NCBI GenBank assembly: GCA_902784565.1
Contig: CACZVE010000012.1
Coordinates: forward strand, 1 to 64,000
Length of the DNA stretch: 64,000 bases
From: an uncultured Prevotellaceae bacterium
GTDB taxonomy: Bacteria > Bacteroidota > Bacteroidia > Bacteroidales > Bacteroidaceae
Reading direction: 5' to 3'
Below the pieces are notes generated by a model. It made no database searches, was not told the origin of the DNA, and saw only the letters and a program-made list of their open reading frames with translations. The position numbers and the translations under genes were made by a program. Position 1 is the first letter of the stretch. Every line of letters begins with the position of its first letter. Shown in pieces: positions 4,336 through 60,265 of the stretch.

Positions 4336-7300
4336 ACGTTCGGTAATATTATTCTGATGTTCGTTGTTCCGTTGTTGTTCTCTGCCCAGATACCACACAT
4401 CCGACGGTTGGTGGCCTCGCCATGATCACGTACGATCTGACGGCAGAGCAGATAGGGGATGTGTGACGAAGAGGTGGGATTGAAGAGGTTCTGCGCTTCC
4501 TCGTCGGTGAGGTGAAGTTGCGGCATGGGTACGATGACCTCCACATACTTGTCATCCTTGGGCGTAATCTGCCACTCTGCCCCACCCTGCTTGCGCAGGA
4601 TATCGGCAAGGTAGGCAATCAGGTTCTTGTCGCCCAGGATACCATTGTCGAGCGGTTTGACATGCAGGTGTACGCCCTCTATCTGGTGCATAGCCTGCTG
4701 CGAGAGGATGCCATAGAGGTCGCGGTAGTAGTCGACCACCTCGGAGAGCGACGACATGTCGCCCTGATCCAACAGTTGCTGGATACGCGAGGGATAGTAC
4801 ATCGTCTCGTGCTTCAGGGTGGAGAGGCAGTTGTCGAGCACCGCATTCGCCACGTGGAGGTTGTTGTTCTCCAATTCCGCCCGCCGTAACTCATCGTCGG
4901 CCATCTCCAGACTCGACTGCTGCTCACGCTCCACAAAGAACCGTTCGTAGAGACGGTGACGATAGTAAAGCAGATAGTAGGCCGGCAGGATGGCCAGGAG
5001 TACCAGCACAAGCAGGATGATGCCGATGCGCTTGTTGCTCTGCGACTGTTGCATGGTACGACAGTAGTCGGCCAACGTATTGTCGGCAGACATCTCCTTA
5101 TAGAGTTGCGTGTAAATCTTGTTATTATAGGAATAGGTCTGCCACTGGTGCAAGGCCAGGGCGGCCACGGCACTCTCATTACGCATGTCGAGAATGACGT
5201 TGTAGTTGACATCTAACGAGTCGTGGAACCACTGTATCTCGGGAGCCACCAACGAGGGGTTACCCAACTGCAGCAACAGGAGATCGCCATTAGGATAAAG
5301 GTGTCTGTAGTAACTGTTGAGATAATAACGGCATGAGTCGGCAAACTGTAGGGTGCGCTCGTAGGTGCCGTTGATATTGGAGAAATAGGCAGAATCGGCA
5401 AAGACACTAGCGCGACTCAGGTCGTCGGCAGGCTGGGCAGAAGAAGTGAAAAGTGAAAAGTGAAAAGTGAAAAGTAAGAGCAGGGTGCGGAGGAGACCTT
5501 TGGGCAGACGGAAGAAGAAGCGCGAGCCTTTGCCCTGTTCGCTCTCTGCCGCAATGGAACAGACGGAGAATATCTGTGATATCTTACGGTATTTCTCGAT
5601 GATACCCTTGCAGTTCAACAGACCGAAGCCGTGACCTCCCGTACCCGTGTCGCGGATGGGTTTGGGATCGAAGAGATGCTGTAACTGTTCCTCGGTCATG
5701 CCTTCACCCGTATCCTTGACGGAGATCTCCACATAGTCGGCAGTCTCCTGCGCCGACAAGGATACCTGTCCTCCTTCTGGTGTGAATTTACGAGCATTAT
5801 CGGCCAGCGTGTTGAGCATGAAGAGCGTCAGCACACGGTCGGCCTTCACCAGAGCCTCCGTAGGTTCCACCTCCAGTCCGATGCCCTTCATCCCAAAACT
5901 CTTCCGACCCTTCGCCACCATGTCGAAGAGGGGCTGCAGGGGGAAGGTCTCTATCTTCAGGTTCAGTTCACCCTGACGCAGTTGGATCCAGTGGGTCAGG
6001 ATGTCGTTATAGTCGTTGATCTGACTGGTCAATTCCCGGATATAACCCTCGTCACGGCCCTTGTGTACGCAGTAGATGATACGGTCGATGAAGGGGGTGA
6101 TGCTATTGACGAGGGAGACCTTGGCCCGCTGCTCGAGGTTACGTCGTTCGTTGTTCTCCACACGGAGCCGTTCCATCGCCACATCATCCTGACGCTGCTC
6201 CAAGATCTCGTCGAGTTGGTTGTACTTCTTCTGTTTTTTGTTCAGATGGTTGAAGAGCCACAATGAGAAGAGCAAGAGCACGATGGCAATGCCGACAGCA
6301 ATGAGCATCCAGTTGAGTTGGGTGGCGGTGGCCTCCAACTGACTGGCACGAGCCTCCAACTGACGATCCTGTCGGGTGTCGGTCATCAGGTCGATGTAGA
6401 CATTACGGTTCATGTCGCTCTGCGACTTGTCGTCCATCGCGGAATAAGCCACACTCAACTGTTCACGGATACTCGCCACCAGGTCGGGAGCCTGATTGAT
6501 AATGGTATCGGAGAGCGCCTGTTCCAGATTGAAGAGCGTCGACGGGTAGTCGCCGATCTGTCGGAAACAGGAAGCCAGCGTACGATAGGCACCTGCTATC
6601 TGGTAGACATCGCCATACTCCATGAAAAGGGAAAGGGCACTCTCGGCCAACCAGCCGGAGAGCATCTCCTCCTCCACCCCCTCGGGGTTGATGAATTTCA
6701 TGGCGGGGAGGTTATCGGCGATGAGTTGTCGACGGTAGTCTTCGTCCATCAGGTGTTCTGACAGGGCCTCCAACGCCTGGGCGGCAAAGTAAGGCATGTC
6801 TGCCCGACGGGCCGTCAGGAAACAACGCATGAGGGCATCGAACTCCTGTTGGTTGATGTCTTGCTGGGTGCCCTCGGTGATGATGCCGCCCGCACCGATG
6901 TTATAGAGGTAGTTCAGATACTGGGCGGTGTCGCGCTGTATCTCATTGGGGTCTATCTGTTCCAAAGCCTGGATGGACTGTCGCTCCAGACCTACGTAAT
7001 AATAATAGGTGGAGTTGACGATGGCATATTCCGTCTCAGCATAGCGCAAGACACCCAGATCGCGTTCGGACAACAGGTCGCGTTCTTCGTTGATGCGACG
7101 CAGGGCACCATCGGCCAACTCACGGTATTCATAGAACGCACGGTTGTTGGAACGACGTTGACAGAGACGCATCTGCTGCACATACGACACAAGGCGTTGT
7201 GCTTGATTATCAGTGATTTCCGGAATATTACTCAAGCGTTTCTCCGCCTCGTCATACTGCATCCGAACGATGTTGACAAAGGCCAGATGATTCAAGGCCT

Positions 7301-7484
7301 CTGCCCTGCCCTTGTCGTAATGTACGGAACGGTCGTAGGCCTGCTGGGCATAATGCTCCGTGGAGTCGAGGTTACGATAATGATAGGCATACGACAGACT
7401 ATTCAGCCTGTCCACATCCTGTTTGTCAGGCTGTGAACAGGCTGAGAAAAGAAGTGTAATCAGTATGATGGATACGAGCCTCAT
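4317..7484 (-). CDS. Lipoprotein-anchored TPR sensor histidine kinase with a second kinase-like half (DUF5112/DUF5113 type)
   Basis: A 1055-residue protein. The start at 7484 forms an ATGA overlap with eda and gives a lipoprotein signal with the lipid cysteine at residue 16 (TLLFSAC). A TPR-like helical sensor region follows, with a membrane segment near residues 390-412. A kinase core ends near 655: N box [11 protein letters not shown]1 DTGEGM and G2 GGHGFGLLN are present, but the usual histidine of the dimerisation helix is absent (it reads [13 protein letters not shown]). A second half begins with a hydrophobic segment at 660-680. It has another membrane span and an H-box-like [11 protein letters not shown], but only a degenerate ATPase region. 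From family memory this matches Bacteroidota DUF5112/DUF5113 sensors. A heptamer repeat array sits at the seam. Confidence 0.82.
5444..5478. repeat. Heptamer array 1 (five units) inside the sensor kinase gene
   Basis: Four perfect copies of AAGTGAA followed by AAGTAAG. On the coding strand it encodes the hydrophobic stretch [11 protein letters not shown] at residues 669-680. The array lies exactly between the two kinase-like halves of the protein. It belongs to the same class as the arrays at 34336, 39785, 42083, 53102, 59321 and 60231. Confidence 0.9.
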
Positions 7485-8149
7485 GCACGTGCCTTGGCGA
7501 TATAGCCGAGAGCCTCGCGGCACTTGTCAGTGACATACTGCCAGTCGCCGGCCTTGACCTTATCCGAGGGGAAGAGTTTGGAACCCATACCCACACAGTA
7601 GACACCGGCCTTGAACCAGTTGGTCAGGTTTTCTTCATCGGGAGAGACACCGCCAGTAACCATGATCTTCGACCAGGGCATCGGTGCCTTCAGACCTTTG
7701 ACCATGTTCGGTCCCACCACGTCGCCGGGGAAGACTTTCGTCAGGTCACAACCCAACTCCTGGGCCTTACCAATCTCACTGACGGTCATACAACCCGGGC
7801 AGTAAGGCACCAAACGACGGTTACAGACAGGGGCGATATCGGGATTGAACAACGGTCCCACCACAAAATTCGCACCCAACTGGAGATACATTGCGGCTGT
7901 AGGGGCATCGACGACAGAGCCAATGCCTAATGCCAACTCTGGACATTCCTTGTCGGCCCATTTCACCAGTTCGCCGAACACCTCTTGGGCGAAATCGCCA
8001 CGATTGGTAAACTCAAAGGCACGAACACCACCCTCGTAGCAGGCCTTCACGACCTGCTTACAGGTTTCTAAATCCTTATGGTAGAAGACGGGCACCATAC
8101 CGGTGTCGCCAATCTTCTTCATCACTGCGATTTTATCAAACTTTGCCAT
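7481..8149 (-). CDS. eda: 2-keto-3-deoxy-6-phosphogluconate aldolase
   Basis: A 222-residue class I aldolase that splits KDPG into pyruvate and glyceraldehyde-3-phosphate, the last Entner-Doudoroff step, also used for hexuronate breakdown. Family signatures include the segment FEFTNRGD, the VVGPLFNPD strand and the Schiff-base lysine in LTKVFPGD near residue 145. The in-frame upstream extension to 8233 is rejected because it runs into the kdgK coding end and is not aldolase-like. It follows kdgK by 4 bp, and its TGA overlaps the ATG of the sensor kinase, so sugar-acid catabolism and a signalling protein are translationally coupled. The enzyme is cytoplasmic and normal in length. Confidence 0.95.
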
Positions 8150-8153
8150 ATCA

Positions 8154-9176
8154 TTATCTCTGTACGCGACCGCTGGCGTTACCGCCGGCAAGAGCCTCCA
8201 CTTCCTCAATACTAACCTGGTTGAAGTCACCATTGATGGTGTGCTTCAGGGCTGATGCAGCCACAGCGAACTCCAAAGCCTCGCCCTGAGTCTGCTTCGT
8301 CAGCAGACCATGAATCAGACCACCGGAGAAAGAGTCGCCACCACCCACACGGTCGATGATGGGATTGATCTCGTAACGCTTCGACTGATAGAACTCCTTA
8401 CCATCATAGATAAGAGCCTTCCAGCCATTAAACGTGGCGCTGTAACTCTCGCGGAGTGTAGAGACGACATACTTGAAACCGAACTCCTGCATCATCTGCT
8501 TGAAGATGCCCTCGTAGCCGGCAGCATCGGTCTTACCTCCCTCCACGTCGGCATCGGGCTTGAAACCGAGACAGAGTTCGGCATCCTCCTCATTACCGAT
8601 ACAGACATCGACATACTGCATCAACGGACGCATGATGGAGATGGCCTTCTCGCTGGTCCAGAGTTTCTTACGGAAGTTCAGGTCGACACTGACGGTCACG
8701 CCATGACGCTTTGCAGCCTCACAGGCCAATTTCGTCAGTTCTGCAGCCTTGTCGCTGATGGCAGGGGTGATACCGCTCCAGTGGAACCACGCAGCCCCCT
8801 CCATGATTTGATCGAAATCGAAATCGGCAGACGTAGCCTCTGCAATTGCAGAATGTGCACGGTCGTAAATCACCTTCGAAGGACGCATGGAGGCACCCGT
8901 CTCAGCATAATAGAGTCCGATACGGTCACCACCACGGGTGATATAGTCTGTCTTCACACCAAAGCGACGCAGCGCATTCACGGCAATCTGACCGATCTCA
9001 TGCTTCGGCAGTTTGGTGACATAATAAGCCTCATGACCATAGTTGGCCAATGAGACTGCCACGTTGGCCTCACCGCCACCGGGGATGATACGGAATGATT
9101 CACTCTGGATGAAACGGTCGTTTCCTTGCGGAGACAGGCGGAGCATAATCTCGCCCAATGTTACAATTTTAGCCAT
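8154..9176 (-). CDS. kdgK: 2-keto-3-deoxygluconate kinase (PfkB family)
   Basis: A 340-residue ribokinase/PfkB-family kinase. The N-terminal [12 protein letters not shown] motif and the C-terminal GGGDSFSGG motif near residue 280, which carries the catalytic aspartate, are both intact. With eda directly downstream the substrate is most probably 2-keto-3-deoxygluconate, giving KDPG. It is the first gene of the kdgK-eda-kinase-regulator-membrane protein operon and is transcribed from a consensus promoter at 9219-9250. It is divergent from a LacI-type regulator. A related sugar kinase specificity cannot be excluded from sequence alone, but the context is strong. Confidence 0.93.
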
Positions 9177-9218
9177 TGTTTCTTATTATTTTGATTAATC
9201 ATTATTTCATTTGCGCTA

Positions 9219-9250
9219 CAAAGGTACACTTTTTGTTCGAAACCACCAAA
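9219..9250 (-). promoter_or_regulatory. Promoter for the kdgK-eda operon
   Basis: Read on the minus strand: TTTG at 9250-9247, 20 bp spacing, TACCTTTG at 9226-9219. The -33 region is part of an inverted repeat shared with the divergent lacI-type gene. Confidence 0.75.
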
Positions 9251-9274
9251 TAATACATCATGAAATTTGGTGGT
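9242..9274. promoter_or_regulatory. Inverted repeat between kdgK and the LacI-type regulator (candidate operator)
   Basis: ACCACCAAA at 9242-9250 and TTTGGTGGT at 9266-9274 form 9-bp arms around 15 bp. Each arm contains the -33 TTTG of one divergent promoter. It may be a LacI-family operator, or two copies of an extended -33 element (TTTGGTGG also occurs before nth at 53627). Confidence 0.5.
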
Positions 9275-9297
9275 ATGAAAAAAAAGGCGTACCTTTG
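9266..9297 (+). promoter_or_regulatory. Promoter for the lacI-type regulator / uxaA operon
   Basis: TTTG at 9266-9269, 20 bp, TACCTTTG at 9290-9297. The ATG is 26 bp downstream at 9324. Confidence 0.75.
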
Positions 9298-9323
9298 CAC
9301 ACGGCAACATAAATTCATCAATC

Positions 9324-10391: not shown

Positions 10392-10394
10392 ACG

Positions 10395-33193: not shown

Positions 33194-35068
33194 TTATTTC
33201 GGATAGATGTGACCCTCATCGTCGATGAGGAGAATGGTGAGTTGACCGTTGGGAAGGAGCGGACAACAGTGTTCGGCGCAATGGTTGATGACGATGCGGG
33301 CAAAAGCGCTCTTTTTGTCAGCAGGCAATCTGTCCCATAATTCCCTAGCCAACGTGATGTCGCTGATGTCGATGTCGCAGTCGGCTTCTTTGAGCATCCC
33401 ACTGATGAAAGTCTTGTCCATGGTGGCCTTGCGGCTATGGGTATCCAGATGTCCGGCAGCGAGTTTGACAGCCTTGCCGAGCATCACACCGAGGGTGACA
33501 TAAGGAATGCTGAGTTCGTGGGCAATCTTCAGCGTCTCACCGATGTAATTGCCATATTCCACAAAGGCCTGTTGGGGTAATTCCGGATAAAGGGCCTTGA
33601 CGAACCGCTCACTCTTACCCCCGCTATTAATCACCACACGCTGTTGATGCGAGTTTGTGTATGCTGCCTTGGCCACTTCCATGCACTTGCGGATAGAGTC
33701 GATAAAAGCCTCCTCGGAGAAGGGTTTGACAATACCCGAGACACCAATAATACTGATGCCGCCCTCAATACCCAGACGGGGATTAAAGGTGCGACGGGCT
33801 ATCTCTGCACCATTCGGCACGCTGATGGTGACGCGGAGTGAATCATGGGGACTGACCCCTGTGATAGTAGCGTAGCGGAGATCATGGGGTCTGTCCCCGT
33901 GATTCAAGCGCTTCACAATCTCCAGAACATTCTTCCGAATCATCTCGCGGGGAGCCTTGTTGATGGCGGGAGATCCCGGTGGATAGTCGAAACCGGGAAG
34001 AGTGATGGTTCCAACGCCTTCGCCACCGAGGATTTCAAATTCTCCTTCTTCCACACTGGCGCGGACTTCGATGCCGTTTGTGACGTCGGGATCATCGCCA
34101 GCCTCTTTGATGCAGGCGGCATAGTCTGGGCCATAGATAACGGTCACAAGGATGGTCTCACCATCAGGCAGGACAATAGGTACTTCTGCAGGGGTCTCGC
34201 CTTCCAACAGTCTTATCGTCGCTGCAACGGCAGCAGCAGTGGCGCAGGTGCCGGTGGTCAGTCCGCTATGCAGGGGAAAGAACTCCGGCAATAGTTTCTC
34301 CACGGCACGACGCAATCCATACGGGCCATTGATAGAAGTGAAAAGTGAAGAGTGATAAGTGAAAAGTTCTGGGTGCTTGAGAGCGATGATACGCATGCCC
34401 TTTTCCCTGGCAGCCTCAACCTTCTCAATAAACCCTCCCGAAAGCCCGCTTTCTTTCAGCAGGATGGCCTCAACAGAATCATGGGGACTGACCCCTGTGA
34501 TAGTAGCGCAGCGAAGATCATGGGGTCTGTCCCCGTGATTCTGCTCGATATTCAGTTCATAGAAACAAAGTTGCTCATTCGTAGCCCCCTGTTGATGTGC
34601 CAGCGCAATCGATGACTTCCGGGGCAATATCCGATAAAATACCTTGACGCCCTGCGCCTCCAACCATTTCAGTTTACTGATGCTCTGCACACCTGTCGTG
34701 GCAAGCAGCGAATGGATATCCGTCGGCACTTGCGAGTAGTCGTCAATCCATGTGATATCCGGGTCTCGCGGAGGATAGATCCTTTCGTAGCGGACAACGG
34801 GAATCGCCAACGCATCGGCTACTTCGGCTATCGTCTCATGGAGTTGCGTGGCAAACGGATGGGCGGCATCGACGATGAGTCGTATCTGGTGCTCCTGACA
34901 GAACAGGCGCATCGCCTCACCGTTCATCGCACCGTCAATGCGCTGTCCGTTGTGTAACGACAGTTCCTGTTCACCTGTCTTTGTGCTATAGAAATAGTTG
35001 GAGCCCGCCTCTTCCAGCACCTCCACAGCCTTGCGGCCCTCCGTCGTTCCTCCAAACACCAGAATCAT
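33194..35068 (-). CDS. Fused CbiJ-CbiD: cobalt-precorrin-6A reductase and cobalt-precorrin-5B methyltransferase
   Basis: A 624-residue bifunctional protein of anaerobic corrin synthesis. Residues 1-245 are a CbiJ/CobK reductase (MILVFGGTTEGRKAVEVL, VDAAHPFATQLHETI); residues 265-620 are a CbiD methyltransferase (LHSGLTTGTCATAAAVAA). Three foreign-looking repeats lie in frame. A REPIN-like 66-bp palindrome is found at residues 176-198 and again at 388-410, each adding a peptide similar to NHGDRPHDLRYATITGVSP, and a heptamer array lies at the junction of the two domains (233-244, LFTYHSSLFTS). The frame stays open throughout, so the gene is probably still functional. It overlaps the CbiG-CbiF gene by ATGA. 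Confidence 0.92.
   Translation of the reverse strand: MILVFGGTTEGRKAVEVLEEAGSNYFYSTKTGEQELSLHNGQRIDGAMNGEAMRLFCQEHQIRLIVDAAHPFATQLHETIAEVADALAIPVVRYERIYPPRDPDITWIDDYSQVPTDIHSLLATTGVQSISKLKWLEAQGVKVFYRILPRKSSIALAHQQGATNEQLCFYELNIEQNHGDRPHDLRCATITGVSPHDSVEAILLKESGLSGGFIEKVEAAREKGMRIIALKHPELFTYHSSLFTSINGPYGLRRAVEKLLPEFFPLHSGLTTGTCATAAAVAATIRLLEGETPAEVPIVLPDGETILVTVIYGPDYAACIKEAGDDPDVTNGIEVRASVEEGEFEILGGEGVGTITLPGFDYPPGSPAINKAPREMIRKNVLEIVKRLNHGDRPHDLRYATITGVSPHDSLRVTISVPNGAEIARRTFNPRLGIEGGISIIGVSGIVKPFSEEAFIDSIRKCMEVAKAAYTNSHQQRVVINSGGKSERFVKALYPELPQQAFVEYGNYIGETLKIAHELSIPYVTLGVMLGKAVKLAAGHLDTHSRKATMDKTFISGMLKEADCDIDISDITLARELWDRLPADKKSAFARIVINHCAEHCCPLLPNGQLTILLIDDEGHIYPK
33840..33905. repeat. 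REPIN-like palindrome, copy 1 (in the CbiD part)
   Basis: A 66-bp element with GAATCAtGGGGAC at one end and GTCcCCGTGATTC-like sequence at the other. Two GGGG-CCCC hairpins surround a centre AGTAGCGTAGCGGAG. It differs from the copy at 34476-34541 at two positions. It adds 22 codons without breaking the frame. Confidence 0.9.
34336..34370. repeat. Heptamer array 2 at the CbiJ-CbiD junction
   Basis: Five consecutive heptamers: AAGTGAA, AAGTGAA, GAGTGAT, AAGTGAA, AAGTTCT. On the coding strand they give LFTYHSSLFTS between the two enzyme domains. Confidence 0.9.
34476..34541. repeat. REPIN-like palindrome, copy 2 (in the CbiJ part)
   Basis: A 66-bp element almost identical to 33840-33905 (centre AGTAGCGCAGCGAAG), in the same orientation and the same reading frame. 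Its two halves are imperfect inverted repeats of about 25 bp. Confidence 0.9.
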
Positions 35069-37555: not shown

Positions 37556-37649
37556 TAGAATGCTGTTTTTGTTTTACGACGTAACTTATATGTTGTAACA
37601 CCATGCCTCCAGATTTTCGGAATTATCCATTTTTACTTTGATTTTTCTG

Positions 37650-38312
37650 CCCCAAAACTGGGAGACGTTTATGCATGGGGGGCAAAAATGTGCCTCAAAA
37701 TTGGGGGAAGATTTTGCATGGGGTGCAAAAACGTGCCTCAGATTTGGGGGAAGATTTTGCATGGGGTGCAAAAACATGCCTCAGTTTTGGGAGAAGATTT
37801 TGCATGGGGTGCAAAAACGTGCCTCAGATTTGGGGGAGACTTTTGCACGGTGTGCATAAACGTCTCCCAGTTTTGAGGCAGGTTTATGAAGTTTCGGGAC
37901 GGTTTTCCCGGATTTAGGACTAGGTTTTCAAGTTATGGGATGGCCTGTCCCGAATCTGGAGCATATCATTTTGATCTTTTAAAAATCAGCCCCAAAACCA
38001 GGAGAAGATATTCCGGCCTCGGGAAATCGTGTCCCAATTCTGGGTGAAAAAATCCCAACCCCGGAGAAATATCCCCCGAATCTAGGGCAAGAAATTCCGA
38101 CCTCGGGAAATTATCCCTCAGATCCAGGGCAAAATATTCCGACCCAAGAGAAAGGCGCCCCAGATTTGGGTGAAGAAATTCCGACCCAGGGAAAACATGC
38201 CTCAATTCTGGGGCAAAACATTCCGACCACGGAATATTATCCCTCAGATCTGGGGCAAGAAATTCCGACCTCAGAATATCTTCTCCTAGATTTTAGGCAA
38301 GTTTTTCAAACT
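37650..38312. repeat. Tandem array of about 16 degenerate 41-43 bp palindromic units
   Basis: Units start near 37650, 37693, 37736, 37779, 37822, 37864, 37907, 37949, 37990, 38033, 38075, 38115, 38158, 38200, 38241 and 38283. Each begins with a CCCAGATTTGGG-like palindrome and contains a second one. In units 1-5 the second is TTTTGCATGGGGTGCAAAA; in most later units it is ATTCCGA with CGGAAT. Units 2-5 are nearly identical; later ones are diverged. The period is not a multiple of three, so it is not coding. It fills the 790-bp gap between FISUMP and DUF2147 genes. Confidence 0.88.
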
Positions 38313-38772: not shown

Positions 38773-40011
38773 TCAGAATGAGGCAGAAAAGATTTCAATA
38801 GGATTATAGTCGTTCAGTTGGATACGAAGCGGATCGGCTTGACACAGGTGCAGTTCGATGCAAGCCTCGTCCCAGAGTTGTCGGCTACTCTTCCGGTCTG
38901 TCATCTGGGTGACAACGGGAGAAGTGACGCTGTTGAAGACGATAACACCATCGGGGGTGAGGACGGTGAGAACCTTCGCCATGATTTCCTTCAGACGGCC
39001 TCCGTGTCCACCGATAAACACGGCATCAGGACGAGGGAGTGAAGAGATATCTGTTTCGAGGAAATCACCAATATGGATGTCTATGCCTGGGACACCAAAG
39101 CGACGGGTATTCTCTTGGATGATAACCTCGCATTCGGGACGGATTTCGAAGGCAACGACTTGCAAGTGGGGGAACTGCAAACGAGCCTCGATGCTGACAC
39201 TACCTGTGCAGAAACCGATATCCCAGAAGACACGACGTTTCGGCAGGTCAAGAGCCTGAAGCGTCAGCAAGCGGATCGGCATCTTGGTAATCATCTTCTC
39301 GCGACCATCCAGCAAAGCAAACTCACTGTCAGGGATACCGAATAATCGATTAGAATAAATACCATCCTTAGATACTATCACGCAGTTGGGATAATCAAAG
39401 GTGCGGTGGGTGGCTTCTTCGAGGGAGAGGGTTGTGACCTTTTCGAGTTCAGGATGACCGAGGTGTTCACCGACGGACATCGTATATGAGGTGTAACCAT
39501 AGTCCAACATCCGTTGGGCGATGGCAGCAGGAGTATGTTCGTGGTCGGTGAGAATGCCTATCTTCCCTACCCTTTCGATGAGTGCCTTGTCGAACTCAGG
39601 CCAAGGACGACCCGTCAGTGAGACGATACGCATATCGTGATAAGGCATCACAAGTCGATGAGCCAACATCTGGAGGGAATTAAAGGAAGGATAGAGGATG
39701 ATTTCGGCATCTGGCATCTTCCGTTTGATGGTGTTGGCAAAGCCGAAGAAAAGAGGATCGCCAGAAGCGAAAACTATTATTTCAGAGGTGAGAGGTGAGA
39801 GGTAAGAGGTAAGAGAAATGTATTGCTCAAAGACGGTGTCGAGGGGAGTCGTGATATCTATCCACTGGGCATCGGCAGGGAGCAATGGGGCTACTATCTC
39901 ATGGTGACGTCTGCCACCAGAGAATATATTTCCTTTCTGGATGATTTCCAATACCTCTGGCGGAAACCAGGGTTGTGGATTGTCCGTTATTCCTATAACA
40001 ATAAATTTCAT
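38773..40011 (-). CDS. Fused CbiE-CbiT (CobL): precorrin-6Y/7 C5,15-methyltransferase and decarboxylase
   Basis: A 412-residue protein. CbiE (about 1-215) begins MKFIVIGITDNPQPWFPPEV and has FASGDPLFFG and VSLTGRPW. CbiT (about 225-410) has DIGFCTGSVSIEARLQFP and AVFIGGHGGRLKEIM, the SAM site of the C15-methyltransferase/decarboxylase. The start at 40011 makes an ATGA overlap with the CbiH-CbiC stop. A heptamer array (39785-39812) adds ISLTSYLSPLTS near residues 67-76 within CbiE, in a loop before the GDPLFFG motif. The reactions methylate C5 and C15 and remove the acetate carboxyl of ring C. Confidence 0.92.
   Translation of the reverse strand: MKFIVIGITDNPQPWFPPEVLEIIQKGNIFSGGRRHHEIVAPLLPADAQWIDITTPLDTVFEQYISLTSYLSPLTSEIIVFASGDPLFFGFANTIKRKMPDAEIILYPSFNSLQMLAHRLVMPYHDMRIVSLTGRPWPEFDKALIERVGKIGILTDHEHTPAAIAQRMLDYGYTSYTMSVGEHLGHPELEKVTTLSLEEATHRTFDYPNCVIVSKDGIYSNRLFGIPDSEFALLDGREKMITKMPIRLLTLQALDLPKRRVFWDIGFCTGSVSIEARLQFPHLQVVAFEIRPECEVIIQENTRRFGVPGIDIHIGDFLETDISSLPRPDAVFIGGHGGRLKEIMAKVLTVLTPDGVIVFNSVTSPVVTQMTDRKSSRQLWDEACIELHLCQADPLRIQLNDYNPIEIFSASF
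39785..39819. repeat. Heptamer array 3 inside the CbiE domain
   Basis: Units GAGGTGA, GAGGTGA, GAGGTAA, GAGGTAA, GAGAAAT. In frame in CbiE. Confidence 0.88.
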
Positions 40012-41407: not shown

Positions 41408-42328
41408 CTATATAATCAGTAATACGGTGACAACCATCACGACCATCAACACCTCCGCACCACGATTCACGCGAACGGCAGTTCTCATGTCAGAAGTGGT
41501 GAGCAGACGGTTATTGTCACCGATATATGGTTTGTCGAAAACTTGTCCGAAATAAGTGTGTGATCCTCCAAAGCGACAGTTGAGGATAGCGGCGAGGGCT
41601 GCTTCCGGATAGCCGCTATTGGGTGAAGCGTGGCATCGTCCGTTTCGCCAGACGAAGCCAAATAACTTCGGCTTTCCAGAGACGATAATCATCAAGAATG
41701 CCGTCAGACGGGCGGGGATGTAATTGGCGATGTCGTCGATGTGGGCAGCCCAACAGCCAAAGTCCTTGTAGCGTTCTGTCTTGTAGCCTATCATCGAGTC
41801 AAGGGTGTTCACCATCTTATAGGCCAGCATACCTGGTGTTCCCAGTAATGCTAACCAGAACAACGGAGCAATCACCCCATCACTCAGATTCTCTGCCAAC
41901 GTCTCAAGGGCTGCCGTCCGTACTTCCTGAGCAGAGAGTTCCGAAGTATCACGTCCTACGATACGGGCCACCTGTTTCCTCCCCTCTTCCAACGAACGAT
42001 CCAAAGCCAGGAATACCGCCCGAACCTCACGAATCAGGGTGGTATCGGCTAAGCAATAGAAGATGATGATAGCATCAAAAACAAGTGATAGGTGATAAGT
42101 GCTGAGTGATAAGTAGTGGCGGAGCAGGCAGGTGAGAACAAAAACCAACAGAATGAGAATAACTGTCATCAAGGCACCTTTCAGTTTGCGATGGAAGCCT
42201 TTATTCAGTCTATGCTCTCCGAAGGCAATCATCTTCCCGAACCAGACGATTGGATGCGGCAGTCTGGCGGGATCGCCAATCAACAGATCGAGTAGCCAAC
42301 CTATGAGCAATGATATCGGATTAGTCAT
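41408..42328 (-). CDS. cbiB: Adenosylcobinamide-phosphate synthase CbiB/CobD
   Basis: A 306-residue inner-membrane enzyme that attaches the aminopropanol arm to adenosylcobyric acid. CbiB landmarks are GDPARLPHPIVWFGKMI, TAALETLAENLSDGVIAPLFW, YKMVNTLDSMIGYKTERY and NSGYPEAALAAIL. A heptamer array (42083-42117) encodes the hydrophilic-to-hydrophobic stretch HYLSLSTYHLSLVF between two membrane segments near residues 70-82. It overlaps the CbiP stop by 8 bp. Length is near the family norm despite the repeat. Confidence 0.93.
   Translation of the reverse strand: MTNPISLLIGWLLDLLIGDPARLPHPIVWFGKMIAFGEHRLNKGFHRKLKGALMTVILILLVFVLTCLLRHYLSLSTYHLSLVFDAIIIFYCLADTTLIREVRAVFLALDRSLEEGRKQVARIVGRDTSELSAQEVRTAALETLAENLSDGVIAPLFWLALLGTPGMLAYKMVNTLDSMIGYKTERYKDFGCWAAHIDDIANYIPARLTAFLMIIVSGKPKLFGFVWRNGRCHASPNSGYPEAALAAILNCRFGGSHTYFGQVFDKPYIGDNNRLLTTSDMRTAVRVNRGAEVLMVVMVVTVLLII
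42083..42117. repeat. Heptamer array 4 inside cbiB
   Basis: Units AAGTGAT, AGGTGAT, AAGTGCT, GAGTGAT, AAGTAGT, in frame within a loop or membrane segment near the N terminus of CbiB. Confidence 0.88.
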
Positions 42329-52511: not shown

Positions 52512-53624
52512 ATGGCAGGAATCTACATACATATTCCGTTTTGCAAGAGCCGTTGCATCTATTGCGGTTTCTATTCGACGACTCATCTGGACCTCCGTCA
52601 GCAGTATGTTGAAGCACTCTGCAAGGAGATGGCGATGCGCTGCTCGGATGCGCAGGACATCGCTTCCATCTACTTCGGTGGTGGCACACCCTCACAACTG
52701 AGCATTCCCCAACTACATCAGATCTTCGACGCCATATATAAATATAATAAGGTGTCGTCAGATGCCGAGGTAACCATCGAGATGAACCCCGATGATGTGA
52801 CAGAGGTGTTTGCAGACGGACTGTGTTGGCTGCCCGTCAATCGCGTATCAATGGGAGCCCAGACCTTCGACGACGAACGCCTGAAATGGTTGCACCGCCG
52901 CCATACCTCGCGCCAGGTGGCAGAAGCAATGGAACGCCTGCGCGACAATGACATCCAAAACATCAGCATCGACCTGATGTACGGATTCCCCGGTGAAACT
53001 CTATCCGACTGGAAGGCAGATATTGACGCCGCATTGAGTCTGGATGTAGAACATCTCTCCGCCTACTGTCTCATGATAGAAGAAGGCACGGAATTGTGGA
53101 GGAAAGTGGGAAGTGGAAAGTGGAAGGAGAATAGTGAGGAGACGGAACGAGCAATGTACGAATTCCTTATCGACAGACTCGAAGCCGCAGGTTATGAGCA
53201 CTATGAAATCTCCAATTTCGCCAGACCAGGCTTCCGCTCCTGCCACAACTCCGCGTACTGGAACGACACCCCCTATATCGGTCTCGGTGCAGCCGCCCAC
53301 TCCTACGACGGTCTCACCCGCAGTTGGAACATTGCCGACATCCGTCAGTACATCGAGGGCGTTGAGAACGGCAAGCGCCTTTTCGATGCTGAGACCATTG
53401 AAGGCGACACCCGTTACAACGACCGTCTCACGGTTGCCCTTCGTACCCGTGAGGGCCTCAACCTCTCGGAACTGTCGGCAAAGTACAAGGACTACTGTCT
53501 GAAAAATGCCCGTCGCTTCCTTAACGATGGTTTACTCCGTCTCATCCCCGACAAACACCTCACCCTCACCCGTCGTGGTCTATTCGTTAGCGATATGATC
53601 ATCAGCGAACTGATGCTAGTATGA
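52512..53624 (+). CDS. hemW: Radical SAM heme chaperone HemW
   Basis: A 370-residue HemW/HemN-like protein. The radical SAM motif CxxxCxxC is at residues 10-17 (IHIPFCKSRCIYCGFYS), with IYFGGGTPSQL, NPDDVTEVFADG and SMGAQTFDDERL. The HemW-type C-terminal domain is present. It lacks HemN-type features needed for coproporphyrinogen oxidation, so a heme-binding chaperone role fits better. A heptamer array (53102-53136) inserts KVGSGKWKENSEE near residues 197-209. Its 3' end overlaps the promoter region of nth. Confidence 0.9.
   Translation: MAGIYIHIPFCKSRCIYCGFYSTTHLDLRQQYVEALCKEMAMRCSDAQDIASIYFGGGTPSQLSIPQLHQIFDAIYKYNKVSSDAEVTIEMNPDDVTEVFADGLCWLPVNRVSMGAQTFDDERLKWLHRRHTSRQVAEAMERLRDNDIQNISIDLMYGFPGETLSDWKADIDAALSLDVEHLSAYCLMIEEGTELWRKVGSGKWKENSEETERAMYEFLIDRLEAAGYEHYEISNFARPGFRSCHNSAYWNDTPYIGLGAAAHSYDGLTRSWNIADIRQYIEGVENGKRLFDAETIEGDTRYNDRLTVALRTREGLNLSELSAKYKDYCLKNARRFLNDGLLRLIPDKHLTLTRRGLFVSDMIISELMLV
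53102..53136. repeat. Heptamer array 5 inside hemW
   Basis: Units GAAAGTG, GGAAGTG, GAAAGTG, GAAGGAG, AATAGTG on the coding strand, in frame. This is the only coding array whose AGTG-rich strand is the sense strand. Confidence 0.85.
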
Positions 53625-54365: not shown

Positions 54366-54875
54366 CTATTTTCTATTACCCTGTTGCATTCTGGGAGGGC
54401 GGGCCATAGGGTTACCCATCGGATTCCCCATAGGGTTACCCATTGTGTTACCCATCGGATTTCTGCCCCAGTTACGGAACAGTCCGCGGTGATACTGATC
54501 CTCAGCCTTGATGACATCGAAAACCTTAGAGGCAGGAAGTACACTGAGGAACTTGTTGTGATAGGTCTGCTGAATGCTCTTCAGTTCCAGTTCTACCTGA
54601 TCACGTTTCTGAATCACTTTCTTGCAGGCCTTCTCGTCTGCAGGCTTGATTTTCGACTCTGCCATCATCTGGTTGTAGATTGCACGCTGCTTCTTCTGCA
54701 TCTCCCTGAACATGGGGAAGAAGGCTGAGGCTTCCTGAGGGGTCAGACCGGCTTCCTTAGCAATATACTGCTCCATGTCAGCCTGATACTTCTCTGGCGA
54801 AAACCTCTGCTGTCCCTGAGCCCAAGCACCCAGTGCAAAAACAACAGCCAGACAATTAACGATCAGTCTCTTCAT
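54366..54875 (-). CDS. Spy/CpxP-like periplasmic helical protein with MGNP repeats
   Basis: A 169-residue exported protein with a signal peptide (cleavage after AWA near residue 19). The body is helical and charged: KYQADMEQYIAKEAGLTPQEASAFF, then MFREMQKKQRAIYNQMMAE, then KKVIQKRDQVELELKSIQQTYHNK. This is like Spy/CpxP-type or heavy-metal-sensor-type envelope stress proteins in Bacteroidota sigma operons. The tail holds four copies of MGNP/T in tandem (12-bp DNA repeats), ending MARPPRMQQGNRK. It follows the anti-sigma-like gene by 16 bp and ends at the operon terminator. A chaperone or sensor role is inference. Confidence 0.7.
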   Translation of the reverse strand: MKRLIVNCLAVVFALGAWAQGQQRFSPEKYQADMEQYIAKEAGLTPQEASAFFPMFREMQKKQRAIYNQMMAESKIKPADEKACKKVIQKRDQVELELKSIQQTYHNKFLSVLPASKVFDVIKAEDQYHRGLFRNWGRNPMGNTMGNPMGNPMGNPMARPPRMQQGNRK

Positions 54876-55854: not shown

Positions 55855-55866
55855 TTGCGTTCTTTA

Positions 55867-57339
55867 CTACAATAAGATAGAGCCCATCTCACGACTGATT
55901 GTCTGGTCATAGCCGTAAAGGTCAGGCCACAACTCCACCACACCCGTCTTGGGGTTTGGGTAGGCTGTATAATAAATAATGTATAAGGGCACCTTAGGGG
56001 TCACGTCCTGATAGGAAATCAGACGGAAGGGTTTCTGAGCACCGGCATGTTCACGGACATAAGCCTGTCCTTGAGTCGTTTCCGGATGGATATCCATCGA
56101 GATACGCAGACGGTCTTTGGTCCACTCATCCGCATCGGGCAACAGGAAGCATGCCAGTTCGAAGGGCTTCTGCACACGGACACAACCATGTGAGAGGGTA
56201 CGCTTGTCTCGGTTGAAAGCACTCCGGTTGTTCGTATCGTGGAGATAGACGGCGAAATTATTTGGGAAACGGAAGACGATACGTCCCAGGGAATTGCCTG
56301 CCCCACCCTTCTGTCCGATACGCAGACGACCAGACACCATCTCTCCTGAAGTGACCTCCGCAGGATTCAGGGTATCGCCGGAACTGCGTTCTATGATATA
56401 ATACCTGTGACGGGCGAAATAAGCAGAGTCGCCACCATGACGGGCCACATCAGTCTTGACGATATTGTGGGGAATGATCCACTCCGGATTCACCTGCATG
56501 TAACTGATAGCACTATGTAACAACGGAGTCTTGTTTGTCGTGGCTCCACAACAGATGCGCATATCAAGTACAGAATCGGGAGCAACCGCCCAGAGTTGCT
56601 GGGAAGGGATATTCACCAACACCTTCCGTTCTGTTTCTCCGGGGTGTTTCATCTGCCAACGGCAACGTTCCATATTGACGGCAATCTTATGACGCTGATC
56701 CTTATCGGTGGTCTTTGTCAGTTGTCTCTGTAAGGCCTGATAGACATACCCTTCGGGATGCGAAGCCATGAGATAACTCATCCTGTCAGACGATGTCAGT
56801 TTCTGTTCTGCCTCCTTCGGATCGGGTATTTTCACTTCTTCATCGAAAAGACGGGCATACTCCGAACTGCCGGCCTTGATGTTCAGGTGATTGAATAGTT
56901 TCTCGGGCTGAAGAAAGCCATAGCGCTGACCAGTGACATAACTGACATACGCCTTCGACAACAAAGAGTCGAGACGGGGAAGCACCTCATTGATACTCAC
57001 ACCAACGGAATCGAAGGCAAGGAGATGCACGATCTGCAGGTCTTCGGCTATCTGGGGAACAAAAAAAGCGGTGGTATCAAGTCCGTGGACAGGCAGTTCA
57101 CTGCGCAGAAACGACAAGAAAGAGTCGGCATCCGATGACACGCCCATACGATCGAACCACTTCCCTTGGAGAGATGTGTCCAATGAATCAACAAAAGTAC
57201 CGAATGCTGAAAGGTCTGCCTCCGTAGGCTCACGGTTTCCTTCAACACAGGAAGCCAGGAGCACGCAAGTAACAGCAAGCAGACATGCTATCGAACGGAG
57301 ACCTTGCGCACAACATTGCCAACCTTCACAATGTAGCAC
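55867..57339 (-). CDS. L,D-transpeptidase (YkuD family) lipoprotein
   Basis: A 490-residue protein with a lipoprotein-like signal (LLAVTCVLLASC, lipid cysteine near residue 31). A long helical N-terminal region follows, then a peptidoglycan-binding-like stretch and a C-terminal YkuD catalytic domain (about 260-430) with the active-site motif SHGCVRVQKPFELACFLL and HDTNNRSAFN. This is the YcbB-type layout. It should form 3-3 cross-links or attach proteins to peptidoglycan in the periplasm. The start is unusual. ATG 57339 lies 52 bp inside the preceding gene, and no other Met is nearby. The sigma-factor gene starts 12 bp after its stop. Confidence 0.87.
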   Translation of the reverse strand: MLHCEGWQCCAQGLRSIACLLAVTCVLLASCVEGNREPTEADLSAFGTFVDSLDTSLQGKWFDRMGVSSDADSFLSFLRSELPVHGLDTTAFFVPQIAEDLQIVHLLAFDSVGVSINEVLPRLDSLLSKAYVSYVTGQRYGFLQPEKLFNHLNIKAGSSEYARLFDEEVKIPDPKEAEQKLTSSDRMSYLMASHPEGYVYQALQRQLTKTTDKDQRHKIAVNMERCRWQMKHPGETERKVLVNIPSQQLWAVAPDSVLDMRICCGATTNKTPLLHSAISYMQVNPEWIIPHNIVKTDVARHGGDSAYFARHRYYIIERSSGDTLNPAEVTSGEMVSGRLRIGQKGGAGNSLGRIVFRFPNNFAVYLHDTNNRSAFNRDKRTLSHGCVRVQKPFELACFLLPDADEWTKDRLRISMDIHPETTQGQAYVREHAGAQKPFRLISYQDVTPKVPLYIIYYTAYPNPKTGVVELWPDLYGYDQTISREMGSILL

Positions 57340-57605
57340 CCTTTTGGAATATTAAGTTCTATCTTCTGTGCTGGGCTCTCCACCTTCACATCCATGATTT
57401 TCTTTCCTGTCAAGGAGACAATCTCCAAGGTCTGACCTTCCGCACCAATCACGGAAAGGAATCCGTCACTATAAGTAATGGTGACATCCTGTTCCACAGC
57501 CATCTCCATGACACCTGCCAGATAGGCGGGAGCCGCATTGGCTGAAACGGGAACGAGGCAGGATAAAGCCATCGTGAACGATATGATGAATATACGCTTT
57601 GTCAT
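57288..57605 (-). CDS. Small exported protein with a T9SS C-terminal-domain-like fold
   Basis: A 105-residue protein: signal peptide (TKRIFIISFTMALSCLVPVSANA) followed almost directly by a beta-rich segment. From about residue 45 this segment resembles the type 9 secretion C-terminal sorting domain (ADLEIVSLTGKKI-like LEIVSLTGKKIMDVKVES, and IPKGCYIVKVGNVVRKVSV). There is no cargo domain. It is the first gene of the operon with L,D-transpeptidase and sigma factor and has a consensus promoter. It overlaps the next gene by 52 bp. It may be a remnant of a larger secreted protein or a stand-alone tail; no function is assigned. Confidence 0.65.
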   Translation of the reverse strand: MTKRIFIISFTMALSCLVPVSANAAPAYLAGVMEMAVEQDVTITYSDGFLSVIGAEGQTLEIVSLTGKKIMDVKVESPAQKIELNIPKGCYIVKVGNVVRKVSVR

Positions 57606-57627
57606 ATGCAATAGTCTATAATTTGTG

Positions 57628-57659
57628 CAAAGATAGTGTTTTTCAATGAAACAACCAAA
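57628..57659 (-). promoter_or_regulatory. Promoter of the transpeptidase-sigma factor operon
   Basis: On the minus strand TTTG at 57659-57656, 20 bp, TATCTTTG at 57635-57628. From here five overlapping or closely spaced genes run to the terminator at 54312-54348. Confidence 0.75.
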
Positions 57660-57681
57660 TTTTTAAGGCAAAAAATGCAGT

Positions 57682-58596
57682 TCAGACGTCAAAAACAGCC
57701 ATTTCGTTAGTCAAATAGGTATTCTCGAAGACTTTTTTCGCCTCTTCGAGCAACACATTCTCATCTTCGTAGCGTGAACTATAATGCCCCAGCAACAATT
57801 TCCCTACCCCAGCCTCTTTAGCCACCAGTGCTGCCTGACGGGCGGTGGAATGACAGTACTTTTCCGCAGACTGAAGACGGTCTTCACCATAGGTACTCTC
57901 ATGATAAAGCGTATTCACCCCCTTCAACAGTTCGTGCAGGGTCGGGATATATCGGGTATCAGTGCAATAGGCATAACTACGGGGAGGATCGGAGGGTTTC
58001 ACCAAACGACTATTGGGAATCACCTCGCCATCAGCAGTCGTCCAGTCGGCACCGTTTTTGATATTATTTACCTGACTGGTAGGAATCTGGTAAAAGTCCA
58101 TCATTTCCCGACGGATATGCGGCAAACCTTTTTTCTCCCGAATCAGATAGCCACAGGTGGGCATACGGTGCTGAAGAGGAATCGTCTCCACCGTCACACT
58201 GCGGTCTTCATAGACAATGGCGTTCTTCGTCGTATCCACAGGATGGAACTCTATCTCATACCCTAAGTCATGGGTAAAGAAGTCGATTTGGTTCTTTAGC
58301 ATCGGTCCCAGTTCCTCAGGCCCATGGATGTGGAGGGTAGCCGTGCGGCCCAAAAGACCGAAGGTAGATATCATACCGATGAGTCCGAAACAGTGGTCGC
58401 CGTGCAAATGGGTAATGAAGACATGACTCAACTTCGTGAAGCGTACCCGACAACGACGGAGTTGCATTTGGGTACCCTCGGCACAGTCGAGCATCAGTAC
58501 CTTGTCACGTACCTCAACCACCTGCGACGAAGCAGAATGACGAAGGGTGGGAAGCGCACTTCCACACCCTAAGATATGTACCTTAAACGGTTCCAA
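57682..58596 (-). CDS. rnz: Ribonuclease Z
   Basis: A 304-residue metallo-beta-lactamase-fold tRNA 3'-processing endonuclease. The metal motif HxHxDH is in VFITHLHGDHCFGLIGM, preceded by LILGCGSALP-like HILGCGSALPTLRHSASS. Further metal ligands are expected in YCTDTRY, LYHESTY and LLLGHYSSRY. All tRNA genes in the cluster at 19.6-20.1 kb lack an encoded CCA, which suits a role for this enzyme there, while tRNA-Arg encodes CCA. It is 13 bp after the lipocalin-like gene. Confidence 0.95.
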   Translation of the reverse strand: MEPFKVHILGCGSALPTLRHSASSQVVEVRDKVLMLDCAEGTQMQLRRCRVRFTKLSHVFITHLHGDHCFGLIGMISTFGLLGRTATLHIHGPEELGPMLKNQIDFFTHDLGYEIEFHPVDTTKNAIVYEDRSVTVETIPLQHRMPTCGYLIREKKGLPHIRREMMDFYQIPTSQVNNIKNGADWTTADGEVIPNSRLVKPSDPPRSYAYCTDTRYIPTLHELLKGVNTLYHESTYGEDRLQSAEKYCHSTARQAALVAKEAGVGKLLLGHYSSRYEDENVLLEEAKKVFENTYLTNEMAVFDV

Positions 58597-58609
58597 GCCT
58601 TAACCGTGA

Positions 58610-59308
58610 TTAATGGTCGATACGGAACTCGTCGCCACTATCTTCCAGTTTCAGACCGTGCAGATCCATTGCCGGCTTCTCTTTCCAACGGCTGTATTCG
58701 AAGGTCTCCTCGTCCTGTTTCTCCACACCGCTGGTTTTATAAACCAGAGAATCGGCTCCCAACAGGAGGATCTCATAGAGATTCACCTCTTCCATATCAC
58801 CACCACCTTCGCGCTGGGAAAGGATTTCCAACTTACCATTGTAAATCTTCCAAGTCTTGTAGATGATGCTGCTCTGGTCGATGCTCTCAGCCACACCGCC
58901 TTCCTTGATACGGATGCCCACTTCGGAACTGCCGTCAATGGGATTCGGCATCACCCAATCGCCCAAGAGCGTGTTCTGGTTAATGACAATCACGGCTTCA
59001 GTCTTGGCCTTGTTAGGTAATACAGCCATACGGTCACCAGCCTGCAGACCGCCAAACACCTGTCCGTTATCCTGGGCATTGGTCAGATCCAGGTTCAGGG
59101 TGTCGCCATTGTCTGTCAACAACTGGAGGGTGTTCATAGCCGTACCATTGCCGCACAGACCGTATATGGTCTGATCGAAGGGCATGTAATTCTCCACAGA
59201 ATCAGACTCTTCTTCTACTGTCTGCTGTGGCTGCTGATTGCCGCCACCACAACTGCCCATCGTCATGACGAAGGCAGCCATCATTCCGAAAAATGCTAAT
59301 TTCTTCAT
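58610..59308 (-). CDS. Lipocalin-like lipoprotein
   Basis: A 232-residue lipoprotein (lipid cysteine in MTMGSCGGG, residue 20) with a glutamine-rich linker and then a beta-rich domain. The segment LLGDWVMPNPIDGSSEVGIRI, followed by KTWKIYNGKLEI and LVYKT, is the usual pattern of Bacteroidota lipocalin-like domains. The first part (residues 45-110) has another small beta region. No acidic export signal directly follows the cysteine, so periplasmic orientation is likely. It lies between mazG (22 bp) and rnz (13 bp) in the same direction. The ligand is unknown. Confidence 0.75.
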   Translation of the reverse strand: MKKLAFFGMMAAFVMTMGSCGGGNQQPQQTVEEESDSVENYMPFDQTIYGLCGNGTAMNTLQLLTDNGDTLNLDLTNAQDNGQVFGGLQAGDRMAVLPNKAKTEAVIVINQNTLLGDWVMPNPIDGSSEVGIRIKEGGVAESIDQSSIIYKTWKIYNGKLEILSQREGGGDMEEVNLYEILLLGADSLVYKTSGVEKQDEETFEYSRWKEKPAMDLHGLKLEDSGDEFRIDH

Positions 59309-59320
59309 CTCTTTATTTTT

Positions 59321-59348
59321 AATTCACTATTCACTTCTCACTTTTCTT
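59321..59348. repeat. Heptamer array 6 across the mazG stop codon
   Basis: Units AATTCAC, TATTCAC, TTCTCAC, TTTTCTT. On the mazG strand they read as AGTGA-type heptamers and provide the last codons and the TGA. Confidence 0.75.
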
Positions 59349-60197
59349 TGCCTCATTCCATAGTTCATCCATTTCCGATAAAGTCATATCCTTCAATGGT
59401 TTACCTATTTTGATACTATGAGCTTCAATATAGTTAAAACGGTTTATGAACTTACGGTTGGTCATCTCCAGCGCATTGTCAGGATTCAGTTTGTAGAGAC
59501 GCGCAGCATTGATAACGGAGAAGAGGAAATCACCCAGTTCCTTCGTAGAATTCTCCTTATCCTCCTTGCTCAGTTCGGTCTCCAATTCACCGAGTTCCTC
59601 ACGCACCTTCTTCCACACATCCTCCTTCTGTTCCCAGTCAAAACCCACATTACGGGCCTTGTCCTGAATGCGGTAGGCCTTTATCAGACTCGGCAGGGCC
59701 TCAGGCACACCAGAGAGTACACTCTCATTACCATCTTTCTCTTTCAGTTTGATTTGCTCCCAGTTTTCCAAGACCTGTGAAACCGTTGTCACTTTTCCGG
59801 AATCTCCGGTTTCCCCGGTACTTCCAGTCTCCTCTGGCACATACGGCAAGGGCTTAGGATCTTCAGCATCAATCTGCGAGGGATGATAGACATGCGGATG
59901 GCGGGTGATCATCTTACGGGTCAGCGCATTGCAGACATCCGCCATATCAAACTGCTCTTTTTCCTCGGCTATCTTCGCATAGAAACAAATATGCAAAAGC
60001 ACGTCGCCCAGTTCTTTGCAGATGTCGTGGATATCATTTTTGATGAGGGCATCGCAGAGTTCATAGGTCTCCTCGATGGTATTGGGTCTCAGGCTCTCGT
60101 TGGTCTGTTTCTTGTCCCACGGACAATTGGCTCTCAACGCGTCCAACACGTCGAGAAAGCGACCGAAAGCCTGCATTTTTTCTTCTTTTGTGTGCAT
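59331..60197 (-). CDS. mazG: Nucleoside triphosphate pyrophosphohydrolase MazG
   Basis: A 288-residue MazG with tandem all-alpha NTP pyrophosphatase domains. The first has LRANCPWDKKQTNESLRPNTIEE and CKELGDVLLHICFYAKIAEE; the second has NVGFDWEQKEDVWKKVREE and KELGDFLFSVINAARL. It removes aberrant or excess NTPs. Between the domains, 9-bp tandem repeats (59793-59837) encode PEETGSTGETGDSGKV, a low-complexity insertion near residues 120-136. The C terminus lies in heptamer array 6. The start may be ATG 60176. It is divergent from valS. Confidence 0.94.
   Translation of the reverse strand: MHTKEEKMQAFGRFLDVLDALRANCPWDKKQTNESLRPNTIEETYELCDALIKNDIHDICKELGDVLLHICFYAKIAEEKEQFDMADVCNALTRKMITRHPHVYHPSQIDAEDPKPLPYVPEETGSTGETGDSGKVTTVSQVLENWEQIKLKEKDGNESVLSGVPEALPSLIKAYRIQDKARNVGFDWEQKEDVWKKVREELGELETELSKEDKENSTKELGDFLFSVINAARLYKLNPDNALEMTNRKFINRFNYIEAHSIKIGKPLKDMTLSEMDELWNEAKKSEK
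59793..59837. repeat. Five 9-bp tandem repeats inside mazG
   Basis: Units TTTTCCGGA, ATCTCCGGT, TTCCCCGGT, ACTTCCAGT, CTCCTCTGG, encoding the three-residue pattern ETG/STG/ETG/DSG in the inter-domain linker. Confidence 0.85.
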
Positions 60198-60216
60198 AAA
60201 CCATAAAATATTGGGG

Positions 60217-60224
60217 CAAAGATA
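60217..60224 (-). promoter_or_regulatory. -7 element for mazG
   Basis: TATCTTTG on the minus strand, 20 bp before the mazG ATG. Its -33 position falls in heptamer array 7. Confidence 0.6.
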
Positions 60225-60230
60225 CGAAAT

Positions 60231-60265
60231 AATTCATAATTGATAATGCATAATTCATAATTATT
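60231..60265. repeat. Heptamer array 7 between mazG and valS
   Basis: Five units AATTCAT, AATTGAT, AATGCAT, AATTCAT, AATTATT fill the space between the divergent -7 elements and replace both expected -33 positions. Confidence 0.88.

Follow-up and report, generated by a model that had tools for sequence, protein, structure and literature searches.

The stretch of DNA considered here (hereafter, the window) comprises positions 1 to 64,000 of contig CACZVE010000012.1, from an uncultured Prevotellaceae bacterium, and carries seven short arrays in which a unit of 7 base pairs (bp) is repeated in tandem. The genome to which it belongs is a 2.64-Mb assembly of 117 contigs, 79% complete. The closest named contigs stem from Prevotella metagenome-assembled genomes, namely L052 from sheep omasum and L051, which at the nucleotide level are 94.9% and 91.7% identical to the window where they align, and whose genomes are referred to as G061 and G060, respectively. 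A first-pass annotation, made from the letters alone, had described seven heptamer arrays with their units, and a direct check of the letters recovered all of them at the coordinates that it gave.

Heptamer arrays of the window

The arrays and the two boxes that flank the last of them are as follows:

5444..5478, plus strand: (AAGTGAA)4AAGT array in the hydrophobic segment of a kinase preceding DUF5113, the coding strand being minus
34336..34370, plus strand: AAGTGAA-type array at the CbiJ-CbiD junction
39784..39819, plus strand: GAGGTGA/GAGGTAA array with the tail GAGAAATG, in a loop of a CbiE-type methylase
42083..42117, plus strand: degenerate array of AAGTGAT units in a hydrophobic part of CbiB
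53102..53136, plus strand: GAAAGTG-type array in HemW, of which the purine strand is read (RKVGSGKWKENSEE)
59321..59348, minus strand: ATTCACT-type array spanning the stop of mazG, a minus-strand gene
60229..60265, plus strand: ATAATTC array between two divergent promoter-like boxes
60217..60224, minus strand: -7-type box TATCTTTG, facing mazG
60269..60276, plus strand: -7-type box TAATTTTG, facing the valyl-tRNA synthetase gene

The letters of both boxes are read directly from the sequence, and their motif, TAnnTTTG, is that of a promoter-like (-7-type) box. A scan of the window at lag 7, with 25 comparisons and a threshold of 18, gives 25/25 for the array at 5444, 24 for that at 39784 and 21 each for those at 34336 and 60229, while the weaker ones reach 19/25 over 24 nucleotides (nt) at 42085, 19/25 over 22 nt at 53104 and 18/25 over 22 nt at 59322. 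None of 30 fourth-order Markov sequences contains such an array, and the highest count at lags 3–30, multiples of 7 aside, is 2 (lags 6 and 30).

The gene assignments also hold: the host proteins are a DUF5112-HATPase-DUF5113 kinase, CbiJ-CbiD, a tetrapyrrole methylase (cbiE-cbiT), CbiB and a radical SAM protein with a HemN_C domain (HemW). The array at 59321 overlaps the 3' end of mazG (open reading frame (ORF) 59331-60197, minus strand), and the promoter-region array, placed at 60231 in the first-pass annotation, occupies the gap that separates mazG from the valyl-tRNA synthetase ORF, with the two opposed TAnnTTTG boxes on its flanks. The suggestion that the in-gene arrays occupy loops or domain junctions stands as regards the genes concerned, and has to be amended for the kinase, where the array forms a hydrophobic, signal-peptide-like segment rather than an arbitrary loop. 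ORFs were called mechanically throughout by a crude rule, under which the CbiE array is not scored as lying inside an ORF.

Abundance, length and unit families

Only the window and a 400-kb sample of the same genome (sample U) are free of any choice by hits, since a further set of 20 stretches (sample A) was picked partly near AGTGA matches; sample A and the window together hold 86 arrays, and the total set including sample U holds 126. Sample U contains 40 lag-7 arrays, or roughly one in every 10 kb, where ten replicates of a fifth-order Markov model average 0.1, and no lag that is not a multiple of 7 or 3 yields more than six. Array counts thus lie clearly above those of shuffled-type sequence in both samples (7 against 0 in the window), and as tandem 7-bp units in many dispersed copies the arrays belong to the class of heptameric tandem repeats. 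Outside this genome the trait is patchy, as array counts are uneven among stretches of the same genus and of the phylum: G060 holds 24 arrays in 200 kb, G034 has two in 20 kb, and the stretches of G016, G024, G009 and G035 have none. A phylum-wide trait was rejected: in other Bacteroidota, 20 stretches, each of 20 kb, hold 8 lag-7 arrays, and ten other lags average 3.8. Two further ideas were likewise discarded: a replication strand bias, the purine strand being on the G-rich strand of the stretch in 63 of 119 arrays, and phage carriage of the CbiB array region (window 42000-42200), which finds no match among phages.

The arrays share a preferred length. Segments of 31–33 nt, or about 4.6 units, account for 13/47 in sample U plus the window, 28/109 in 57 Prevotella-like loci, 12/49 in 23 Muribaculaceae-like loci (a group chosen by eye from titles and the CbiB loop) and 13/41 in 400 kb sampled from the finished chromosome of the isolate behind L117. 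Pooled over the four data sets, this bin holds 66 of 246 segments and the adjoining bins 29 and 17. Geometric copy numbers yield no 31–33 nt peak, and a block of 31–32 nt subjected to 10–15% decay reproduces the peak and its shorter tail, though not the long arrays. The units themselves are not the same everywhere. In the window genome, AGTGAAA/AGTGAAT and AGAGGAA lead, and individual units are common across loci (AAAAGTG in 26, AATAGTG in 23 and AAAGAGG in 22 of the 126 arrays). The Muribaculaceae-like loci are led by AACTATT, AACAGTT and AAACTAG, and the finished isolate genome has, by eye, many arrays of AATTGAC and ATTAAAC types. Since the unit families differ between data sets while the 31–33 nt peak recurs, it is the geometry that is kept and not the sequence.

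Turnover between relatives and coding context

Orthologous sites were available for 48 of the 126 arrays, most of them in G060 and G061, and L058 and loci L345-L359 were compared in addition. An array is present in at least one relative at 21 of these sites, no compared relative has one at 23, and four are intermediate; the arrays differ block by block between related Prevotella-like species. Where arrays are retained, they may differ in the same manner in every unit: AGTGAAT ×4 faces AGTGAAA ×4 at one site, and AGAATTG faces AGAAATG in 3/3 units at another, with few differences or none in other retained arrays (0–4 in most rows). Counting every one of the 17 gapless rows gives 44 pairs of differences in the same phase of the unit, where 5000 random placements average 20.3 and never exceed 35. 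Restricting the count to one relative per array (13 arrays) gives 23 against 9.7 and 20 (5000 placements), and a smaller run on 14 of the 17 rows gave 34 against 13.9 and 26. Differences stacked on one unit position point to whole-block replacement or homogenisation and not to independent point mutation.

Length changes inside genes respect the reading frame. Among 38 comparisons in which the entire stretch falls within a single open frame (17 arrays, with the two arms of a pair entered separately, hence fewer independent sites), 35 show a net change that is a multiple of three, and 31 of these 35 are nonzero, in agreement with the first-pass remark that flanking bases must have adjusted. The remaining three are at L271:12066 (1 nt), where the array is flanked by two promoter boxes and the open frame is unlikely to be genic, and at L271:15327 (-77 and -79), close to where a gene starts. 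Frame-switching by unit number, as in phase-variable repeats, is therefore not what these species-level data show.

The sites of the window illustrate this turnover. In the kinase, a segment judged by eye to be hydrophobic and signal-peptide-like precedes DUF5113 in all 15 aligned loci (14 genomes), and it is made of heptamers only in the window and in L345, L346 and L347, as judged from the peptides of the 15 loci and from DNA for these three relatives alone; L347 differs from the window at one and the same unit position in all five units. The CbiJ-CbiD array, a net 12 nt longer than G060, has no array-type peptide as its counterpart among 21 aligned relative loci (14 genomes, by eye). In CbiE, the window has 12 residues where L051 has HD (net +30 nt), and the array is absent from all 20 aligned loci, L051 included; elsewhere, this slot holds a heptamer-type peptide in L083 and other repeat-like peptides in L053 and L125. 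The CbiB loop (query residues ~70-85, L051-L130) bears small repeat peptides that vary by species, such as LPSPFGEGMGVR-like and FALFIFDGTNQTIYQIPIFLY-like inserts, and the place of the HemW array differs in sequence in G060 and G061. Neither of the two relatives compared has the mazG-end array (net +7 and +8 nt), nor does G060, the sole relative compared, have the ATAATTC array at 60229 (net +22 nt). The same residues encoded without heptamers, an outcome that would have counted against the first-pass interpretation, were not seen by eye for the kinase, CbiJ-CbiD, CbiE, CbiB or HemW.

Other repeats occur at or near these sites. An insert with a short palindrome interrupts the kinase array in L345 (genome of L057), making the stretch 39 nt longer, and a palindromic-looking insert (LARIMGTGCLIPRQSPDQEPVPMIL) occupies the place of the HemW array in L235/L210 (G061). 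Within the minus-strand cbiJ-cbiD, window positions 33837-33905 and 34475-34541 are two copies of a dispersed element of about 66 bp that encodes a NHGDRPHDLRYATITGVSPHDS-like peptide in frame, has up to 97-98% identity to other places of G061 and matches other G000 proteins. Further tandem repeats of 42/43 bp lie at 37640-38309, with related copies scattered widely in G060, and a 12-bp repeat, CCATAGGGTTAC, is present in 4.3 copies at 54404-54455.

With regard to genes, the arrays are not mostly intergenic as in the Xanthomonas and Nostoc type: under the crude ORF rule, 63 of the 126 lie inside ORFs, 30 are intergenic, and 33 cross gene ends (18 of them 3' and 15 of them 5' ends). For units that carry a stop on the purine but not on the pyrimidine strand, the arrays inside ORFs show 21 readings in the pyrimidine sense and five in the purine sense, in comparison with 15 and 18 for units that are stop-free on both strands; at 3' ends, 17 of 18 arrays are in the purine sense with a stop inside the unit. 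Many translations begin, by eye, with N-terminal segments of the form LFT[IFL]H[CFY]SLFT followed by AQ or a lipobox-like C, and arrays make up 7 of the 142 N-termini of sample U and the window that look like signal peptides by a crude rule and by eye.

Origin of the arrays and relation to known repeats

The explanation that we favour, with modest confidence, is that the arrays form a single class of tiny dispersed elements, laid down whole, overwritten whole and filtered by selection. The element would mostly be a block of about 32 bp in which a 7-bp unit is present 4.6 times, for example (AGTGAAA)4AGT, and at 4.6 units a block begins and ends in the same box. A new block would be laid down whole at a new site, with the loss of a few host bases at some sites, whereas old blocks would be overwritten whole by others of the genome's current pool. 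The donor is presumably another array of the same genome, and the step probably short-homology template switching or single-strand annealing in replication or repair; the direction of change, at most sites, is presumed as well. Selection would then retain blocks in promoters, gene ends, linkers, membrane segments and signal peptides. Within genes, stop-bearing units are mostly oriented in the stop-free direction, and a block at the end of a gene can provide the stop. TTCACTT-type blocks, which read LFTIHCSLFT, occur as signal-peptide-like or membrane-like segments, and many intergenic blocks are placed just upstream of a promoter-like box. The first-pass idea of a single process that makes or spreads short heptamer blocks genome-wide gains support from the arrays throughout the genome and from the families common across loci. 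Further points in favour of the block explanation are the 31–33 nt peak, the 23 of 48 compared arrays with no counterpart in any relative, the same-phase differences, the stop filter, the array-made signal-peptide-like N-termini and a 10-mer tail, TTGCT[AG]CCGC, that often follows AGTGA-type arrays. Of the two mechanisms named in the first-pass annotation, a very small mobile sequence fits better than slippage, but no transposase, target duplication or defined end emerged from the analysis.

It is nevertheless important to stress that several observations weigh against this explanation. With 31 of 246 segments of at least 40 nt and a lesser bump at 25–27 nt (38/246), the length of about 32 nt is a mode and not a rule, and a strictly fixed array length is rejected. 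Units are more alike within arrays than across them (0.355 against 0.276, with a maximum of 0.362 in 2000 shuffles, and 0.528 against 0.354, with a shuffle maximum of 0.509 in a second set), which indicates some local homogenisation, and homogenisation within each array would also yield same-phase differences. Ordered mixed words are not clearly shared above order shuffling (1 against 1.03, and 10 against 6.1, with 86 of 1000 shuffles as high), so that whole-array copying through shared unit order is unsupported and the donor step is inferred only. The tails of GAGGAAA-class arrays are unspecific: GAGAATAC follows such an array in 14/56 occurrences, GAGAAATG in 7/39 and GAGATATG in 4/32, with 0/12 and 1/32 for control words. 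A fixed frame of these tails, as expected of an in-frame element, was rejected, the frames being mixed. To these points must be added the same-genus stretches with few or no arrays, and that no enzyme, target duplication or donor was identified in the analysis.

Stepwise slipped-strand expansion, starting at chance two-unit seeds and guided by a mutational preference for 7-nt slips, is a doubtful alternative. Some slippage does occur, as revealed by differences of whole units at L045:2827 (28 nt) and L121:12379 (21 nt), and the greater likeness of units within arrays is in line with it, as is a heptamer excess noted in many bacteria in PMC4692102, which also relays the polymerase-footprint idea from its reference 33. 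As a general account, however, slippage, which the first-pass annotation had offered, fits poorly. Geometric lengths produce no peak at 31–33 nt, and neighbouring units are no more alike than units in shuffled order (0.329 against 0.355, and 0.531 against 0.545). Identical units recur at unrelated loci, the families being genome-wide, and arrays stand at sites where relatives show no seed. A bolder reading, likewise doubtful, is a novel process of the Bacteroidales that would produce and overwrite blocks with a pitch of 7 bp, about 4.6 units and a length of about 32 bp irrespective of the unit sequence, genes exploiting the product as ready-made signal peptides. A polymerase or reverse transcriptase might, for instance, copy a 7-nt template about four times over and supply replication forks with the resulting short single-stranded DNA.

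Less likely still is a transposase- or recombinase-driven mini-element of the kind of REPINs or MITEs, in which the arrays would terminate a hairpin structure. The 86 arrays of sample A and the window include 13 neighbouring pairs within 250 bp, all 13 of them inverted with the purine array first. A palindromic core of the type AATACTCTGC-GCAGACATTT is, by eye, common to four pairs (L038, L045, L277 and L279), two from this set and two from sample U. Whole pairs are missing from both relatives, with net differences of 51, 54 and 75 nt. The tail TTGCT[AG]CCGC follows AGTGA-type arrays, by eye, in 9/13 occurrences in the G000 sample, 1/2 in G060 and 3/6 in a distant finished Prevotella (6, 0 and 2 under a mechanical rule that asks for AGTGA in the preceding 16 nt). 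Given the pairs with a common core and these tails, some arrays may mark the border of a dispersed sequence somewhat longer than the array itself. However, the arms of one pair differ in unit order, single arrays are the majority, and the GAGGAAA-class tails are unspecific. Target duplication was not noticed by eye at the compared sites, where no systematic test was made, and a partner transposase gene was not searched for.

Selection on five boxes at 7-bp pitch, acting as sites for a DNA- or RNA-binding protein, is improbable, even if core bases remain constant while one spacer base changes. A TAnnTTTG box lies within 20 nt of 17 of the 30 intergenic arrays (at 2–11 nt, mostly 5–9) as against 1.3% of random places, a comparison without an intergenic control; minus the hit-chosen sample, this proximity falls to 3/8. 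Moreover, half of the arrays fall within crude ORFs, in either orientation and with a stop-codon filter, every unit has a changed spacer at sites whose flanks are 82-84% identical, and the unit family varies between species. Finally, an assembly artefact, to which a window assembly of 117 contigs at 79% completeness might give rise, is already refuted for the class by like arrays and the same length peak in the finished isolate chromosome and in many independently assembled loci, single window arrays being unchecked against reads.

If dispersed blocks laid down and overwritten whole are indeed the explanation, a vague bacterial heptamer excess becomes a testable claim, namely that blocks of nearly the same geometry and free sequence are gained and replaced as units. 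They would also offer a possible route from repeat DNA to signal peptides, membrane segments and linkers, and may partly explain the fast loop divergence in CbiB, CbiE and HemW.

When compared with known systems, the arrays recall the short tandemly repeated sequences of cyanobacteria, which are dispersed heptamer tandem repeats, and other small mobile-looking repeats. The paired arrays resemble the Rickettsia palindromic elements in being small, palindromic and tolerated in frame inside genes: four paired arrays represent net in-frame changes of 51, 51, 54 and 75 nt, presumably gains. The Rickettsia elements are not known to have heptamer arms. In a literature search with few subscription papers and only top results, neither heptamer blocks in Prevotella nor heptamer-made signal peptides stood out, and neither did a common 32-nt geometry across unit families or block-wise turnover.

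The closest published parallels are the GGGAATC repeats of Xanthomonas and the GGGGA(C/T)T repeats of Nostoc, which have fixed and free positions and usually four units (PMC4692102). The former occupy 186 and 183 dispersed sites in two genomes, with 70 and 75 close inverted pairs, and repeats of the Xanthomonas type are 89-93% intergenic, G-rich and up to 26 units long (PMC4692102). TAACTGA direct repeats have been described in Beggiatoaceae, Cyanobacteria and five Bacteroidetes, and other heptamers in Bacteroidetes are mentioned in the same source (PMC4679880). Thus, given these Xanthomonas and TAACTGA repeats, the class of heptamer repeats is already known. The TAACTGA repeats differ from the present arrays in being of one unit and, in Maribeggiatoa, mostly located just upstream of start codons, and the genomes that the section consulted names do not include Prevotella (PMC4679880). 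With the Xanthomonas and Nostoc repeats the arrays share the 7-bp pitch, the dispersal, the inverted pairs and the variability between close relatives, and they depart from them in that half lie in crude ORFs, the units are mostly without G-runs and blocks act as signal-peptide-like segments.

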